A DNA stretch of 49,571 bases, from NCBI GenBank assembly GCA_017431785.1, contig JAFRKJ010000055.1, positions 1 through 49,571 on the forward strand, written 5' to 3'. Position 1 is the stretch's first letter. Each line of letters opens with the position of its first letter. The notes below the pieces were generated by a model. That model saw nothing but the letters and a program-made list of their open reading frames with translations. It made no database searches and had not been told where the DNA came from. Source of the DNA: Bacillota bacterium (lineage in GTDB: Bacteria > Bacillota > Clostridia > Peptostreptococcales > Anaerovoracaceae). Shown in pieces: positions 4,743 through 39,707 of this stretch. A program made the translations under genes and the position numbers.

Positions 4743-7115
4743 TTACTTAAACTTTACAACGGTCACGCCTTCGCCGCCTTCATCAAAGGCGCCGCGGCGG
4801 TAATCTTTGATATTCTTGTTTTTTCTGAGCGCAGCTCTGATGCCTTTGCTCAGGATACCCTCTCCACGACCGTGGATAATCGTTACTTCTCCAAGCCCGG
4901 AGATAAAAGCATCATCTATATATTTTTCCACATCCATAAGTGCATCGTCAAGGTTTTTTCCCCTGACGTCGATAGATGTTGAGACGGTCTGTGCCTTCTG
5001 TCTGTACATGCTGCCGTAGCCGGATGCTCTTTTCTTGCTGATGGTCTTTGGCGCCTTCTGATCGATCAGCATGATATCCTTGATGTTGACGCCGATTTTC
5101 ATGGCGCCTACCTGTACCTGGAGGTCACCCTTATCGTCAGGCAGTTCGCATATTTCACCGTTCTGCCCCAAAGTCAGGATCTTCACTCTTTCCCCCAGTT
5201 TCAGCATCTCCGGATCGACAGGCTTGTCATTCGTCTCCCGTTTGATGGTGTTTCGATTCTTTTTTTCTATTCTGCGGAGTTTTCTTCTGCCTTCATCAAA
5301 GCGTTTCGTCCGCTCGCCCATGCTCTCCAACCGTGCGATTTCCTTGAGTTCCTCTCTGAAGTCATCTGCCGTCTCCATCGCCTCGTGAATGATTTCCCGA
5401 GCCTCTTCACGTGCTCTCTGAAGTTCCTTATCACGCTTCTCTTCCAGCTTCTTTGCCTTTGCCTCAAGTTCATCCTGTTTGAGCTTCATCTCACGGCTGA
5501 TGCGCATCGCTTCATCGCGCTCCGCTTCCGCCTGCTTCTTATCCTCTTCAATTGCAGTGATGATGTCTTCGAAAACGATATCGCCGCCTTCCAGAAGTCC
5601 CGCCGCTCTGTCTGTGATCTCGTCCGGCAGTCCGAGCTTTCTGGAAATCTCAAATGCATTGGATTTTCCGGGCAGCCCGATTGTCAGTTTATAGGTTGGG
5701 CTCAGAGTCTCTACATCGAACTCCATGGAGGCGTTCTCAACGCCGTCTGTCGCTATGGCGTACTTCTTGAGCTCCGTGTAGTGGGTCGTTGCAATGGTGC
5801 TGGCGCCCCGCGCGGCCAGATTCTCAAGAATGGAAATGGCCAGAGCCGCTCCTTCTGTCGGGTCTGTTCCCGCACCGAGTTCATCCAAAAGCACCAGGCT
5901 CCTTTCATCTGCCTCTTTCATGATTTCCACGATGTTCGCCATGTGGGATGAGAATGTTGACAGACTCTGCTCGATACTCTGCTCATCACCGATATCTGCG
6001 AAGACATTCTCATAGACGGGTACTTTGCTTCCCGGGGATGCCGGGATATGCAGTCCGGTCATTGCCATCAGAGAAAGCAGTCCCGCCGTCTTGAGCGTGA
6101 CGGTCTTGCCTCCGGTATTCGGTCCTGTGACCACCAGTGTTCTATATGTTCCGCCGATGCCGATGTTCACAGGAACAACGGTTTTCTTATCTATCAGAGG
6201 ATGGGACGCACTGATCAGCTGCAACTCCTCCCCTTCATCAATCAAAGGCTCCGTACCATCCATATCAAAGGACAGCCTGCCCTTGGCGTTGATCAGATCA
6301 AGTTCCAGAAGAAGCTTCTGATTGTTTGCCAGATCATGATACAATTCGGAAACACCTGCTGACAGTTCTCCGAGAATGCGGTTGACTTCAGCCTTTTCGT
6401 CCAGTTCGAGCTGTCTAAGCTCGTTGTTCATATTAACGATCGCCTGCGGCTCGATAAATACTGTCGCGCCGCTTCCGCTCTGGTCATGGACGATTCCGGG
6501 CACTCTCGCTCTGTGCTCCTGCTTGACGGGTATGACGTAGCGGCCGTTCCTGATGGTCACAATGGCATCCTGCAGGATCGTTCTCTCGGAATTAAGGATA
6601 CTGTTCATCCGCGCTTTGACCGCGTCATTCTGTCTGACAATGGCCCTTCTGATGGTCCTCAGCTGTGTGCTGGCGTTATCGGACATCTCATCTTCCGAGA
6701 TGATACATCTATCGATTTCTTCTGCAAAAGCTTTATGCACTGCAATGATCTCAACGATGGACTCAATCAGAGGAAGCTCCGGTACGTCGTCCCCCTTCAG
6801 GAAAGCTACCGTTCTCTCCGCTGCCTTCATGTTGTAGAGGATGTGCAGCAGCTGACCCATGGTCAGAACACCGCCTTTGCGCGCGAAACCGGCAAGTCCC
6901 TCAATATCATAAAAACCACCTACCGGCAAAGGCCCCTTTGCTGAAATGAGCTTCACCGCTTCTGTGGTTTCTTCCTGTTTTTCCTTTATTAGACGTGCAT
7001 CACAGACAGGCTCAAGCTCCGATATGACTTTTTTCGTCATTTCGGAGCTTGCCCGGTCTTTTAGCATTTCAATGATCTTATCGTACTCTAAAACGTGTAA
7101 GGTCTTTTCTCTCAT
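4743..7115 (-). CDS. mutS2: MutS2 ATPase with C-terminal Smr domain
   Basis: A 790-residue MutS2 family protein. Walker A is GPNTGGKT (331-338) and Walker B LVLLDEL (about 407-413), followed by GAGTDPTEGAA. A long coiled coil covers about 510-620, and an Smr nuclease domain fills the last 80 residues with IDVRG and HGRGEG motifs. Known MutS2 proteins suppress homologous recombination, and in Bacillus act on collided ribosomes. The ATG follows the zapA-like stop codon directly, so translation should be coupled. No mismatch-recognition domain is present, as expected for MutS2. Confidence 0.96.
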   Translation of the reverse strand: MREKTLHVLEYDKIIEMLKDRASSEMTKKVISELEPVCDARLIKEKQEETTEAVKLISAKGPLPVGGFYDIEGLAGFARKGGVLTMGQLLHILYNMKAAERTVAFLKGDDVPELPLIESIVEIIAVHKAFAEEIDRCIISEDEMSDNASTQLRTIRRAIVRQNDAVKARMNSILNSERTILQDAIVTIRNGRYVIPVKQEHRARVPGIVHDQSGSGATVFIEPQAIVNMNNELRQLELDEKAEVNRILGELSAGVSELYHDLANNQKLLLELDLINAKGRLSFDMDGTEPLIDEGEELQLISASHPLIDKKTVVPVNIGIGGTYRTLVVTGPNTGGKTVTLKTAGLLSLMAMTGLHIPASPGSKVPVYENVFADIGDEQSIEQSLSTFSSHMANIVEIMKEADERSLVLLDELGAGTDPTEGAALAISILENLAARGASTIATTHYTELKKYAIATDGVENASMEFDVETLSPTYKLTIGLPGKSNAFEISRKLGLPDEITDRAAGLLEGGDIVFEDIITAIEEDKKQAEAERDEAMRISREMKLKQDELEAKAKKLEEKRDKELQRAREEAREIIHEAMETADDFREELKEIARLESMGERTKRFDEGRRKLRRIEKKNRNTIKRETNDKPVDPEMLKLGERVKILTLGQNGEICELPDDKGDLQVQVGAMKIGVNIKDIMLIDQKAPKTISKKRASGYGSMYRQKAQTVSTSIDVRGKNLDDALMDVEKYIDDAFISGLGEVTIIHGRGEGILSKGIRAALRKNKNIKDYRRGAFDEGGEGVTVVKFK

Positions 7116-30442: not shown

Positions 30443-30479
30443 CCCGGAGAGGTACAAATACAAATAATTGCTAGAACTA

Positions 30480-30590
30480 TCTGCCCTGTCCTTTTGCCTG
30501 AGAGATTACGTTTATTTGAGTCTTCCTCGATGACCCCTTAACGCGTACACCTTCGGCGCCCGGCCTTACCCGGAGCTCTCCAGAGAATCA
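30480..30590 (-). ncRNA. Glycine riboswitch, single aptamer
   Basis: The minus strand contains the glycine aptamer consensus in order: CTCTGGAGAG, a GC-rich P3 arm, GCGCCGAAGG, then ATCTCTCAGGCAAAAGGACAGGG. P1 pairs 30581-30585 with 30484-30488. No second aptamer is seen in 30590-30716, so this is a singlet. A CCGCGTTTCTG hairpin just upstream (about 30602-30630) may take the place of the missing partner (ghost) aptamer. It controls the downstream AGCS symporter. Confidence 0.95.
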
Positions 30591-30650
30591 TAGCTCGTTT
30601 ACCGCGTTTCTGCATAAAACAGAAACGCGGTTACATAAACTTACGCAGAC

Positions 30651-30716: not shown

Positions 30717-31772
30717 TTAATGCATTTTTGCATTTTCCTGCAGGAAATCCAGAACTTTCTCATACAGAAGCTCTATATGCACATATTGATCCATTGTTCT
30801 TCCTGTCTCGATTTCCACGGTTTTATTATCGTAACCCTGGGATTCGATATCTTTCTTCAGCTTCTCAACTTCTTCGTCCGTATAGCTGATTTCTTCTTTC
30901 TCAGCAATGTATTCGAGGAGCATCTCCTGCTTCACCAGTGTCTGGGCGTAATCCTTGAGTTGCTTCTTCAGTTCTTTCTCTGTGGATACGCCGTAGTATT
31001 TCGCAATAAAATCCTTCCTGTCAACGCCCTGCTGGTCTGCATAGTAATCGATCTGCTGGTCGAAGCTCTCCATGTAATGCTTAACGACTTCCTTTGGATA
31101 CTGTTTTACCTCGGTATCTGCCAGAACCTGAGACCAGATCTCTGTCTTCTGATTCTGTTCTGCTTCTTCCTTCTTTGCTTTGTATATTTGTTTTTCTACA
31201 GCCTTCTCATATTCTTCTGTGTTCTTGTAGTCGCCAAGTGTCTTTACAAACGCATCATTGTACTCCGGCTCCTCAGGTCTTGTCGCCGCATTGATCTTGA
31301 CTGTGAAAATAACATCCTTTCCCTGGAGTTCCTCCTTGTCGTAATCCGGAGGGAATGCCAACGCTAGCTCAATGTTCTGCTCGCCGACTTTATGTCCGAC
31401 AAGTCCCTCTTCGAATCCATTGATATATGTGCCGCTTCCAAGGAGCAGTTCCTGCCCTTCTGCCGATCCGCCTTCAAACTTTTTCCCATCAACTTTGCCG
31501 ACATAGTCTATATTGACGGTATCGCCTTTTTTGACTTCATCGCCCTTGCTGAGATCAACGTCTTTAGTCGCTGCTTTCAGCGCCTCCACAATAGCATCGC
31601 CAATCTCTGACTTTTCGACCTTTACTTCGATCTTTTCAGCCTTGACACCTTTGTACTCGCCGACTTTAAGATAATCACTCAGGTTCAGTCCTTCATACAA
31701 ATTCACATCACTGCCGCAGGCAGTCAGTACAAGCATACCTATTATGATGGACGTGCATATTATCTTTTTCAC
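30717..31772 (-). CDS. Membrane-anchored FKBP/trigger-factor-like lipoprotein
   Basis: A 351-residue exported lipoprotein: signal peptide with lipobox LVLTAC (C19). An FKBP-type peptidyl-prolyl isomerase domain covers about 82-163 (GDTVNIDYVGKVDGKKF, INGFEEGLVGHKVGE). A long helical C-terminal region (about 170-350) resembles the trigger factor chaperone domain (VSTEKELKKQLKDYAQTLVKQEMLLEYIAEKE). It should fold proteins outside the membrane. The ATG overlaps the upstream GTPase-NYN stop by 4 nt, so the two are made together. Not cytosolic trigger factor, because there is no ribosome-binding N-terminal domain. Confidence 0.9.
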   Translation of the reverse strand: MKKIICTSIIIGMLVLTACGSDVNLYEGLNLSDYLKVGEYKGVKAEKIEVKVEKSEIGDAIVEALKAATKDVDLSKGDEVKKGDTVNIDYVGKVDGKKFEGGSAEGQELLLGSGTYINGFEEGLVGHKVGEQNIELALAFPPDYDKEELQGKDVIFTVKINAATRPEEPEYNDAFVKTLGDYKNTEEYEKAVEKQIYKAKKEEAEQNQKTEIWSQVLADTEVKQYPKEVVKHYMESFDQQIDYYADQQGVDRKDFIAKYYGVSTEKELKKQLKDYAQTLVKQEMLLEYIAEKEEISYTDEEVEKLKKDIESQGYDNKTVEIETGRTMDQYVHIELLYEKVLDFLQENAKMH

Positions 31773-34486
31773 CCTTCTTTGCTCCTTTCAATTTCCAATT
31801 TATTCGGATTCTCGATTTCATTGCGTCGTTCCAGTTGTTTCAGGTATTCCCTGATTTCTTCATTGACCTGTTCTACTTCCACTCTAAAATCCTTTGCCGA
31901 TACCCGCTGTGCATTGTTTCCCAATATGATCATTTGCTCCAGCCTGTCGGAAGTCGCAACTCTTACCCGGTACTTGCCGCCCGGGAATGCGCCGCCTTTT
32001 CCCGCCAGTTCGTAGGTTGTACGTTCGATATAAGTATCTGCAGTCTCTGCTTCCTTCGTGTAGACAACCGTCACTTCACCATGTTTTTCGAAATGGCGCT
32101 GACCGCCTTTGACTTTGTACGCGTCGAAAACAGCGATGACCTTGCACTTCCTGTAGCCCTGGTAGTTCCCAAGGACTTCTATCAGCGCTTCTCTGGCGCT
32201 GTCTATGTTCTCTTTTGCCAGTTCTTTCAGCTCATCCCAGGCGAAGATGATGTTATATCCGTCAACAAGCAGATACTCAGGCAAAAGCATCTCTTCCTGC
32301 CGCCTTGCTGCTTCAGCTGCTCTTCTCCTGCGTTCTGCAGCTTTTTTCCTGCGTTCCAGTTCGCTGTCAAACTCTCTGGCTTCAATGGATGGTTTCTCTG
32401 ATTTGCTGCTTTTGAACGTTCTGTCGAATATTCTCTGCAGTTCCTTGTCTGCTGCCGTGTCTGAACCTGATGTCAAACCACTCGATGACACGGAACTGCC
32501 AATTGCCCCTGTTGGGGAATCTGCTGCTTTTGCATCAGCTGCGGCAACAGAAAGATGCATCATATCATCAGCTTCATCCCATCTGACCAGATGTCCTGCA
32601 CCGTGGATGCAGAAGACAGAATCAGCCGATTCTTCCACATCTGCATCAGGATCATAATCAGAAGAAGAAACAACTTCCTCCTGATTGTGACAGATATCGT
32701 ATCCTCCGAACGCGAGTGCGAGACGGCCCCGTCCCTTGGTATAGGATGCGACTTCGGTCACATACTCTTTCATTTCAGAGACAGGCGCGCGTCCTGTCAG
32801 CTTCTGAAGCTCACCGGGAGCATCTCCCTCTGGTGCATTGCAGTTCCCGCTCATCCGCTGTACATCGGACATGGCTCTGCCGACCATCTCCTGTGGTACT
32901 TCCAGTTCAAACGCATACCAAGGTTCAAGAAGAACCATATTACCATCCGCAAGGCTTTTCCTGAGACCCTGCCTGATCGCTCTATAAGTCGCTTGTCTGA
33001 AATCGCCTCCTTCTGTATGCTTTTCATGGGCTCTTCCAGCCTGAATCGTGATTCTCATATCCGTGATTGGTGCTCCGATGAGTGTCCCCACGTGCTCCCT
33101 CTCAAGAAAATGGGTCATGATCAGTCTCTGCCAGTTACGGGCGAGTTCATCTTCGCTCACAGCTGTATCAAACTGCATGCCGCTTCCCCTTGGCAACGGT
33201 TCCAGAAGCAGGTGTACTTCTGCGTAGTGTCTGAGCGGTTCATAATGTCCTGCCCCATAGATAGGTTTGGCGATAGTTTCTCTATATGCGATCCGGCCTT
33301 CACTGAAACTTGCATCGATACCGAACCGCCTTTTGATCAGCTCCTGCAGAATCTCCAGCTGCACTTCTCCCATCAGTTTCATCTGAATCGTTTTCAGTTG
33401 GCTGTTCCAGGTAATCTGAAGTTGAGGATCCTCTTCTCCAAGCTGCTTGAGTTTCGCAAATGCTTCATGTTCATTTATCGTATCAGGCAGCTGCACATCA
33501 TACACCATGAGCGCTTCCAGAGAACCCCTCCCCTCCGGCAAGAGCGTCACCGGACCTGTAACCTGACAGATGCTGCCGGCAGTTACTTCTTCTACTGTCG
33601 TATATTTATCTCCGGAATAGATTCTGATTTGATTGACTTTCTCACCGCCGATTTCATCACGGACGTGCAGTGTGCCGGAAAGAATTTTCATATGTGTCAG
33701 CCGTTCCCCCTGCTTATCCCGCGTAATGCGGAATACCCGGTAGGCAAGTGACTGCTTCTCATCTGCACCAACGGCTTCCGGTTCATATGGAAGGGTCAGT
33801 GTTTCCAAGGCATCCATAAACTGATCAACACCATCCATTTTGAGGGCGGAGCCGAAGTAACAAGGAAAAAGCTCTCTGCTTCTGATTGCTTTTGCAACAG
33901 AATCTGTCGACAGCGCTTCTTCCTGCAGATATTCCTCCAGCAGCCTCTCGCTGCACATGGCGATTTCTTCATCAGACCCGTTCATATCGCAGCAGGCGCC
34001 GTCCAGCTGTCTTTGCAGAAGAGCCATGATTTCCTCACGGTCTGTACCATCCAGATCCATCTTGTTTACAAATAGGAAAACCGGGATATGATAGCGTTTC
34101 AGCAGTTTCCACAAGGTGGATGTATGGCTCTGGACCCCATCTCTTCCGCTGACCACAAGAACCGCATAATCCAGGACGCTGAGTACCCGTTCCATTTCTG
34201 CGCTGAAATCCACGTGACCAGGAGTATCCAATAGAGTCACTTCCAGAGCCTTCTCTGCCCCGTCCCTGCTGTTATCTGACGGTAAGTTGAACACAGCCTG
34301 CCCTGCGAAGATGGTTATTCCCCTCGCCTTCTCCTGGGCATCACTATCAAGCACCGCATCACCGTGGTCGACACGTCCGATTTTTCTGATGGCTCCAGCC
34401 TTGTACAGCATTGCCTCCGACAAGGTCGTCTTCCCGGCGTCAACGTGTGCCAGTATTCCGATTGTGATCCTGCGTTCTTTACTCAT
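31769..34486 (-). CDS. TetM/EF-G-like ribosomal GTPase fused to a Rae1-like NYN endoribonuclease
   Basis: A 905-residue two-part protein. Residues 1-600 are a translational GTPase of the TetM-like ribosomal protection type: G1 AHVDAGKT (13-20), G3 DTPGH (87-91), G4 NKMD (141-144), domain II near 245-330, domain IV near 410-520 and an EF-G-like domain V near 520-600. In domain IV the TetM tip loop (YSPVST type) is replaced by RAHEKHTEGGDF. A disordered, charged linker (about 605-735) leads to a YacP/Rae1-like NYN domain (737-880) with VDGYN (D742), VFDAYKVKG (D788), KEAETAD (E814, D817) and ATSD (D846) all kept. Rae1 is a ribosome A-site mRNA endonuclease in Bacillus. There is no Shine-Dalgarno site; a -10 box lies 6 nt before the ATG. 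An in-frame stop just upstream fixes this start. Confidence 0.93.
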   Translation of the reverse strand: MSKERRITIGILAHVDAGKTTLSEAMLYKAGAIRKIGRVDHGDAVLDSDAQEKARGITIFAGQAVFNLPSDNSRDGAEKALEVTLLDTPGHVDFSAEMERVLSVLDYAVLVVSGRDGVQSHTSTLWKLLKRYHIPVFLFVNKMDLDGTDREEIMALLQRQLDGACCDMNGSDEEIAMCSERLLEEYLQEEALSTDSVAKAIRSRELFPCYFGSALKMDGVDQFMDALETLTLPYEPEAVGADEKQSLAYRVFRITRDKQGERLTHMKILSGTLHVRDEIGGEKVNQIRIYSGDKYTTVEEVTAGSICQVTGPVTLLPEGRGSLEALMVYDVQLPDTINEHEAFAKLKQLGEEDPQLQITWNSQLKTIQMKLMGEVQLEILQELIKRRFGIDASFSEGRIAYRETIAKPIYGAGHYEPLRHYAEVHLLLEPLPRGSGMQFDTAVSEDELARNWQRLIMTHFLEREHVGTLIGAPITDMRITIQAGRAHEKHTEGGDFRQATYRAIRQGLRKSLADGNMVLLEPWYAFELEVPQEMVGRAMSDVQRMSGNCNAPEGDAPGELQKLTGRAPVSEMKEYVTEVASYTKGRGRLALAFGGYDICHNQEEVVSSSDYDPDADVEESADSVFCIHGAGHLVRWDEADDMMHLSVAAADAKAADSPTGAIGSSVSSSGLTSGSDTAADKELQRIFDRTFKSSKSEKPSIEAREFDSELERRKKAAERRRRAAEAARRQEEMLLPEYLLVDGYNIIFAWDELKELAKENIDSAREALIEVLGNYQGYRKCKVIAVFDAYKVKGGQRHFEKHGEVTVVYTKEAETADTYIERTTYELAGKGGAFPGGKYRVRVATSDRLEQMIILGNNAQRVSAKDFRVEVEQVNEEIREYLKQLERRNEIENPNKLEIERSKEG

Positions 34487-34492
34487 GGTGTT

Positions 34493-34501
34493 ATTGTATC
34501 A
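34493..34501 (-). promoter_or_regulatory. Extended -10 promoter, predicted leaderless start
   Basis: TGA-TACAAT on the minus strand with exactly 6 nt (AACACC) between the hexamer and the ATG at 34486, so transcription should begin at or next to the start codon. No Shine-Dalgarno sequence and no suitable -35. The arms TTGTCACAC and GTGTGATACAA (one insertion) flank the spacer region as an imperfect inverted repeat. Confidence 0.6.
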
Positions 34502-34524: not shown

Positions 34525-34556
34525 AATAAAAAGAGGCCTTCCTGAAGAAAGCCTCT
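34525..34556 (-). terminator. Intrinsic terminator of the PTS IIC-like gene
   Basis: 10-bp stem with one wobble (AGAGGCTTTC/GAAGGCCTCT on the minus strand) and a 5-nt loop, followed by TTTTATT. It isolates the downstream GTPase fusion gene from the IIC gene. Confidence 0.88.
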
Positions 34557-38881: not shown

Positions 38882-39646
38882 TTATCGTTTCTTATAAAGA
38901 ACGAGTTCCGGATTGACTCCATCTTTCTCGTAGGTAGCAATCATGATGAAATCCATGCTGGCAAGGACGCCGAAGCACCTGTCTCCGCCGAACTCCGATT
39001 CCAGCTGATTGCCCAGGTAGGTCGTCTTGTCGTTCAGGAATTTCACTTCTGCGCCGCTTGGAAGCCGGTACGGGAGATTCACATACTGACCGACCAGCGC
39101 GTTCAGTTTTTCCACCTTAGGCATTCCGTCTATATGGAGCGCATTGATTTCATCGATCAGCTTTGCCTTGAATTCCTCAAACTCCCCATCATCACTCAGT
39201 TCTTCATATCTCTTCCAGTAATCCAACTGCGGCAGCATCTCTTTCATATACGCGCGAGCCTGCTCCTCAGTGAAACTATCATTTACCATATGCGGCAGAC
39301 AGGTCTCGATGAGATCGTCCATATCGCTGTATGTATAAGTACCATCCGCATAGCACCACTGACAGTAATCCTCATTCAGCGTTCCGTCCTTTTCCCTGCT
39401 AATGATCGAATCTTCCAAAGGCATCCCGCAGCATTGGCATCTAAGCTGCCGCGGTGACCCAAGCAGTGTGTTAATGGAAACATCGAATTCCTTTGACAAC
39501 AGCTTTAATGTGTCTGTATTCGGCTGTGTTTCACCGTTCTCCCACCGGCTGACTGCCTGCCTGGTAACCATGACGCGTTCTGCCAGCTGATCCTGTGAGA
39601 GACCGTGTTTTTCACGCAACGTCTTGATTGTTTCCTGTATTCCCAT
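38882..39646 (-). CDS. XRE-family regulator with zinc ribbon and C-terminal sensor-like domain
   Basis: A 254-residue protein. Residues 1-62 are a Cro/CI helix-turn-helix (LREKHGLSQDQLAERVMVTRQAVSRWENG). Residues 68-106 form a zinc-ribbon-like module (C70, C72, C73, C95, C98: CQCCGMPL and YCQWCYADG). Then a helical segment and a C-terminal domain (about 165-254) of unknown fold. The ATG at 39646 is preferred over that at 39667, because the AAGGAGG site lies between them. The promoter contains a perfect inverted repeat, which fits autoregulation. Confidence 0.86.
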   Translation of the reverse strand: MGIQETIKTLREKHGLSQDQLAERVMVTRQAVSRWENGETQPNTDTLKLLSKEFDVSINTLLGSPRQLRCQCCGMPLEDSIISREKDGTLNEDYCQWCYADGTYTYSDMDDLIETCLPHMVNDSFTEEQARAYMKEMLPQLDYWKRYEELSDDGEFEEFKAKLIDEINALHIDGMPKVEKLNALVGQYVNLPYRLPSGAEVKFLNDKTTYLGNQLESEFGGDRCFGVLASMDFIMIATYEKDGVNPELVLYKKR

Positions 39647-39662
39647 AATGAAATCCTCCTTG

Positions 39663-39707
39663 TTCATAATTCATCTTGATTATGAACTCGCTCCACATAG
39701 CTGACAA
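39663..39707 (-). promoter_or_regulatory. Promoter and candidate operator of the XRE/zinc-ribbon operon
   Basis: TTGTCA (39702-39707) and CATAAT (39679-39684), 17-nt spacer, minus strand. Perfect 8-bp arms ttcataat (39663-39670) and attatgaa (39679-39686) separated by 8 bp cover the -10 box and start region. Confidence 0.7.

Follow-up and report, generated by a model that had tools for sequence, protein, structure and literature searches.

A ribosomal-type GTPase fused to a YacP/Rae1 nuclease appears to replace free Rae1 in many gut Clostridia

Why should a GTPase of a ribosome-binding type and a nuclease of the YacP/Rae1 family be joined in one polypeptide? The question is raised by a gene on the minus strand, positions 31769..34486 (ATG at 34486, stop at 31769; 905 amino acids), of a 49,571-nucleotide stretch, hereafter the window, which spans positions 1 to 49,571 of contig JAFRKJ010000055.1 from a Bacillota bacterium of the Anaerovoracaceae (Clostridia, Peptostreptococcales; assembly GCA_017431785.1). 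A preliminary description made from the sequence alone had proposed this frame and read its product as a TetM-like GTPase carrying a Rae1-type nuclease domain. The frame and the joining of the two activities in one chain were borne out, the TetM label was not, and in many gut Clostridia this GTPase-fused version appears to have replaced free Rae1.

Pfam, the AlphaFold2 model and a fold comparison concurred on a five-domain EF-G-like GTPase, with a G domain (GTP_EFTU, residues 5-230, 33797..34474, 2e-50 for the family), domain II (EF-G_D2, residues 251-312, 33551..33736), domain III (EFG_III, residues 339-394, 33305..33472), domain IV (EFG_IV, residues 397-511, 32954..33298) and domain V (EFG_C, residues 518-602, 32681..32935), all on the minus strand like the features that follow. 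These are succeeded by a GTPase C-terminal extension (residues 612-644, 32555..32653), a linker (residues 645-737, 32276..32554) and a YacP/Rae1-type NYN nuclease domain (residues 738-892, 31811..32275). The NYN_YacP family matched residues 739-892 with 159.4 bits (1e-46) against a curated cut-off of 24.6, and this part of the protein aligned with residues 4-142 of the Bacillus subtilis YacP chain (5MQ8) with an E value of 1.6e-24. AlphaFold2 modelled two confident parts with a poorly ordered linker between them; the fold comparison covered GTPase residues 1-624, and the assignment of the nuclease is based on sequence.

The fusion in the place of free Rae1

One line of evidence came from the place where a stand-alone gene would be expected. 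The yacP gene lay between rlmB and sigH in all three genomes with a stand-alone gene that were looked at (G026, G064 and G280), whereas in the eight fusion-only genomes (G000, G008, G025, G054, G089, G100, G135 and G141) rlmB was followed directly by a sigma-70 gene. The comparison comprised these 11 genomes, G023 being left out because rlmB gave no match there above the cut-off. Of the 11 downstream genes, 9 were scanned with Pfam and all 9 were sigma-70. The window genome is 81% complete, and its rlmB-sigH junction is on one contig. Since yacP is gone from this slot in fusion-only genomes, the fused nuclease is what remains of Rae1, with no spare copy, and the fusion has thus taken the place of free Rae1 in these genomes. 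The stand-alone gene L229 of genome G511 is situated outside the slot, with no rlmB or sigH seen by eye in its 1.5-kb flanks.

Genome surveys extended this observation and answered how often fused and separate yacP genes occur together, a comparison that the preliminary description had envisaged. In the order of the window, NYN_YacP was found in 268 of 322 genomes and the GTPase profile in 173, every one of them NYN-positive; 38 of these GTPases were unfused (24 listed with frames of 645-673 amino acids, 14 called from stand-alone NYN frames) and 135 were fused by difference, fused frames having been read only among the matches listed and some of them being short, broken or at a contig edge. 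Among the 268 NYN-positive genomes, fusion and stand-alone gene were clearly together in only two, G064 and G280. A second NYN match was seen in G083 and G225, its frame not being among those listed, and a second partial match in an 88-amino-acid frame in G220; G073 represents one frame split in two and not two genes. Within the family of the window, 84 of 120 genomes had NYN_YacP and none a clear stand-alone gene, the short frames including that of G101, at a contig edge. In the class survey, 132 of 195 genomes were NYN-positive: 71 fused (85 GTPase-positive minus 14 unfused, a few in broken frames such as those of G370 and G462), 60 stand-alone, one unclassified (G467, a 313-amino-acid frame) and none with both, an extra NYN match in G436, G483 and G510 falling under the family cut-off.

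Scans of named genomes and IMG/VR based on domain IV gave the nuclease in frame at 75 of 82 readable loci. The remaining seven were three from Bifidobacterium, three from IMG/VR, and L179, whose genome has a separate NYN frame of 245 amino acids. Among the best 80 of at least 596 candidates, the fusion occurred in named genomes of Ruminococcus, Gemmiger, Eubacterium, Herbinix, Intestinimonas and Pseudoflavonifractor, and the GTPase without the nuclease in Bifidobacterium. The fusion is widespread, its possible recurrence in Clostridia having been raised in the preliminary description, and fused and stand-alone Rae1 almost never coexist.

Constraint on the two halves and their probable history

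Conservation was quoted crosswise between two sets of sequences because of how each had been selected: domain-IV patterns had served to collect rows L134-L213 (the same best 80), whereas most earlier rows came from searches with the protein or the NYN domain, followed by a filter on the G1 motif. Before the set of 111 fusions was reached, L002 and L003 (which repeat the window gene and L094), the truncated genes L004 and L009, L120 (not retrieved) and L212 (no frame) had been dropped, and removal of L134, a near-duplicate of L005, left 110 distinct fusions. In these, the G-domain residues D16, G18 and K19 were kept in 106 (4 gaps), D87 and H91 in 107 (3 gaps) and T58 in 106 (1 serine, 3 gaps).

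The GTPase half scored far below the models of known families. The nearest NCBIfam model, tet_protect, gave 6.2e-114 and 381.5 bits against a cut-off of 775, and the scores also fell short for TetM/W/O/S (271.3 against 1100), TetM (223.5 against 1420) and Otr(A) (267.8 against 900); the Tet(Q) cut-off was likewise far above the score, and the model for EF-G proper, TIGR00484, gave 277.5 bits against 659.4. Every listed cut-off was likewise out of reach for L095, a distant fusion, and for L194 and L114, both GTPase-only relatives. What these proteins share are two loops of domain IV, GxGH[FY]EPLRHYAEV (residues 411-424), four residues shorter than the aligned EF-G loop, and HxKHTEGGDFR (residues 487-497), whose H487 aligns with an EF-G histidine, the motif being present in 36 of 36 rows gathered without domain-IV patterns. 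Past domain V they also share the extension SVFCxHGxGxxVxW....MH, predicted by AlphaFold2 to form a beta hairpin. Given that 18 of 20 GTPase-only proteins stop at most 6 residues past the MH/IH of this extension, the extension belongs to the GTPase and the nuclease is the addition. To judge from its sequence, the fusion GTPase is a subfamily of its own, below every Tet cut-off.

The linker measures 93 residues in the window protein and 62-155 (median 79) in the 110 fusions, and is mostly disordered, the AlphaFold2 per-residue confidence (pLDDT) being below 50 at residues 650-678, 691-707 and 727-734. A helix at residues 678-691 (32414..32455, minus strand) bears a motif of the IFxRT(Y/F) type, found in 64 of 111 fusion linkers.

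In the nuclease, D742 was present in all 110 distinct fusions and D788, D817 and D847 in 109 (one gap); the same four aspartates, which we take to be the catalytic residues of YacP/Rae1, were kept in 44 of 44 stand-alone YacP rows, and nuclease residues were kept in 73-74 of the 74 rows fetched via domain IV. The acidic residues listed in the preliminary description were thus right for D742, D788 and D817 but not for D846, position 846 being a serine and the aspartate D847, and its E814 proved variable (glutamate in 90 of the 110, glutamine in 19), with E812 (100/110) and E821 (108/110) being steadier. The most evident change affected the C-terminus: the motif LExxR[RKN] was found in 37 of 44 stand-alone tails and in only 3 of 110 fusion tails. 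At the position of its leucine, invariant in the 44 stand-alone rows, no letter exceeded 27% in 37 fused rows, and the arginine of LExxRR (93% in the former) was most often a gap in the latter. Between the same two sets, N748 changed from 93% N to mostly F, K811 fell from 93 to 54%, E850 from 93 to 54% and R861 from 100 to 51%. Rae1 R166P is among the B. subtilis suppressors classed by their authors as loss of function (PMC6613710). Position 166 of the 5MQ8 chain falls in the WRRG of the LExxRR segment (aligned via L131 and assuming that chain and protein numbering coincide). The C-terminal end of free Rae1 would then serve docking or folding, and could be dispensed with once fused.

The ratio of nonsynonymous to synonymous substitution rates (dN/dS) between the window gene and that of G008 was lowest in the nuclease (0.017), 0.07 in both the GTPase and the linker, and highest in the extension (0.17), values taken from the one unsaturated pair, synonymous sites in the other four pairs being saturated or not computable. 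In all five pairs the nuclease had a lower dN than the GTPase. Both halves look constrained, with no sign of a relic.

In a quick GTPase tree, 39 fused rows shared one branch (starred, support 100) with three rows from Bifidobacterium and one from IMG/VR, and a better-modelled tree of 32 rows recovered the same group with 99/100. The nuclease tree separated 37 fused from 44 stand-alone rows (90/97, not starred) with a single exception, L229 of G511, a stand-alone NYN among fused nucleases whose genome has a separate GTPase and which may be a product of fission. A single origin of the fusion is the simplest reading, which the trees fit without proving it. The fusions of G280, G239 and G241 clustered in the GTPase tree with fusions from families other than their own, which gives them the look of acquired genes. 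The Bifidobacterium GTPase-only proteins fell inside the fused group in the quick tree, and a fused-only clade was not rejected with the better model (approximately unbiased test, p 0.629); nuclease loss in Bifidobacterium was consequently not adopted as the settled reading, a pre-fusion state being possible too. On two IMG/VR contigs (L214 and L215) a GTPase-only member lies at the contig edge, L214 grouping with Bifidobacterium in the trees.

A proposed mechanism and its competitors

We put at about one half the probability that the gene is the Rae1 of its lineage, tethered to a GTPase of a ribosome-binding type and working as a GTP-driven A-site mRNA endonuclease that feeds transfer-messenger RNA (tmRNA) rescue. 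EF-G-type factors put domain IV at the A site. Few bacterial enzymes are known to cleave mRNA within the ribosome, Rae1 being one of them; tmRNA was found in 9 of 9 genomes checked. Published work describes Rae1 as an endonuclease of the ribosomal A site, proposed to enter stalled ribosomes, such cuts preparing tmRNA rescue (PMC12320835, PMC6613710, PMC10100781). That one protein could perform A-site cleavage, as first suggested from the domain order, is plausible and gains weight because the fusion replaces stand-alone rae1.

We infer a hand-over of ribosome docking to the GTPase, and the following mechanism with it. The GTP-bound GTPase would dock at the factor-binding site of a paused ribosome whose A site is free of tRNA, and domain IV would probe the decoding centre; after GTP hydrolysis domain IV would withdraw and the flexibly tethered nuclease would swing in and cut the A-site mRNA, leaving tmRNA and exonucleases to clear the truncated message. 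A hand-over would be needed because domain IV and the nuclease cannot fill the A site together, and it would be allowed by the length of the linker. The GTPase would in this way provide active delivery in place of the self-docking of free Rae1. The specific claim that it checks the paused ribosome and, on GTP hydrolysis, passes the A site to its own nuclease, a GTP-gated mRNA scissor, is more tentative, a possibility to which we give lower odds. If true, large groups of gut Clostridia would have such a scissor as their only Rae1; we know of no earlier translational GTPase with mRNA cleavage as its output, and it would be the first. That the free gene was dropped and Rae1 welded to a GTPase points to GTPase-assisted delivery, and the fusion offers one protein in which to follow how binding, GTP hydrolysis and cleavage succeed one another.

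Several observations weigh against this proposal. Free Rae1 works in B. subtilis with no tethered GTPase. In the window's family, 36 of 120 genomes have no NYN_YacP at all, so that the fusion is dispensable. NYN_YacP was also missing from 6 of the 14 class genomes with an unfused GTPase (G506 of these with a broken gene) and from all three Bifidobacterium genomes, where the GTPase is present; since the GTPase thus occurs without the nuclease, it must serve a function independently. Drift after the fusion could account for the missing C-terminal motif, and R166P may merely disturb folding. In the set of 111 fusions, moreover, K811 (75), E850 (78) and R861 (78) were less relaxed than in the 37 rows, so the C-terminal loss is the only clear-cut change in the nuclease. 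Lastly, no biochemistry on any member of the fusion family was found in the literature search. A Rosetta-stone argument from the 173 of 173 GTPase-positive order genomes with NYN_YacP was not used, in view of the same 6 of 14 class genomes.

The best-surviving alternative, which we hold to be rather unlikely, assigns two independent jobs to one chain, the GTPase doing that of its unfused relatives and the nuclease being an ordinary self-targeting Rae1, with the fusion fixing co-expression only. It would suit the long, disordered linker, the preserved active site, and the GTPase-only members in 38 order and 14 class genomes (G026 in both), some of them without Rae1; it is less easily reconciled with the loss of yacP from the operon in the eight fusion-only genomes examined, with the lack of any GTPase-positive order genome without NYN_YacP (0/173), and with the near disappearance of the free-Rae1 C-terminal motif from the fusions. 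Distinctly less probable is a factor that splits or recycles stalled ribosomes, the GTPase parting the subunits or back-translocating like EF-G-type recycling factors and the nuclease removing the leftover mRNA: the fold is shared by translocation, recycling and protection factors and cannot separate them, and nothing here supports subunit splitting. Least probable of all is a tetracycline-type protection protein turned into a resistance device by an added RNase, for although tet_protect is the nearest model and the idea is in print (Atkinson 2015, PMC4342817), scores are about half the curated cut-offs or less, the domain-IV tip is common to relatives without the nuclease, the fusion lies on chromosome-sized contigs in G025, G089 and G141 and substitutes for an rlmB-sigH operon gene, and no neighbour is conserved, although no search aimed at nearby resistance genes was made. 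The antibiotic-response role of the preliminary description had family resemblance as its sole basis here. In gut metagenomes, proteins of this type may be wrongly annotated as tetracycline resistance.

Surroundings of the gene and comparison with known systems

Neighbour clustering of 105 fused and 27 GTPase-only loci yielded no family in more than 19 fused loci and hence no operon partner; the largest family (19/105) is an ABC-type ATPase by sequence, not by profile scan. PADLOC gave no match to a defence system. The gene downstream (30717-31772, minus strand) overlaps the fusion stop by 4 bases and encodes a lipobox protein with FKBP and trigger-factor C-terminal domains and without the trigger-factor N-terminal part, perhaps an exported foldase; it was rejected as trigger factor itself given its lipobox-like LTACGSD, a tig model matching only from position 106, and its presence at +1 in 5 of 105 fused loci.

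A probable -10 box (TGTGaTACAAT; 34493..34498, minus strand) precedes the ATG by six bases, with no Shine-Dalgarno sequence, an arrangement also found in 5 of 7 same-genus relatives compared (6 of 8 with the window), and the fusion mRNA is possibly leaderless. This was not retained as a special feature, because 4 of 40 other window genes checked (starts 24298+, 28133-, 36486- and 36532+) likewise had a -10-like box just upstream of the start, with no Shine-Dalgarno found, so that mRNAs without a leader may be frequent in this genus. A terminator-like hairpin upstream (34532..34556, minus strand) is probably the end of a phosphotransferase system (PTS) EIIC gene. Elsewhere in the window, all on the minus strand, are a glycine riboswitch (30476-30593) upstream of a sodium:alanine symporter gene, an HTH_3 and zinc-ribbon protein (38882-39667) with sub-cut-off similarity to MqsA/PezA-type antitoxins, and a MutS2 with an Smr domain (4743-7115), a family that includes a known ribosome-collision sensor.

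The fusion architecture is not new. The preliminary description, which considered its function undescribed, was right in that no functional test was found, but Atkinson 2015 (PMC4342817) already describes Tet proteins combined with a YacP-like NYN domain in ten species of Clostridiales and puts forward resistance by way of an RNase, raising a possible RNase ability toward rRNA. Our literature search, which reached only part of the Rae1 literature, found no further papers on it among the records listed. What is added here is the GTPase subfamily, the distribution, the near-exclusion of free Rae1, the empty slot and the loss of the tail.

The Atkinson fusions have the same Tet-type GTPase plus YacP-like NYN architecture, but they were assigned to the Tet subfamily and viewed as a possible means of resistance, whereas here the GTPase falls under the Tet cut-offs and the fusion replaces rae1. 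TetM, TetO and Otr(A) are EF-G-like GTPases of the same branch, from which the fusion differs by its far lower scores, its own domain-IV tip, the additional C-terminal hairpin and the nuclease. The unfused members (L114 of G026 and L194 of Bifidobacterium boum) share the domain-IV loops and the SvFC..G.G..V.W extension, and differ in ending shortly past it, without the nuclease. With Rae1/YacP of B. subtilis (5MQ8) the fusion has in common the NYN domain and its catalytic acids; the former, however, is a free protein whose gene adjoins yacO/rlmB (PMC6613710), whereas the fused domain has no LExxRR-type segment and is borne by a GTPase.

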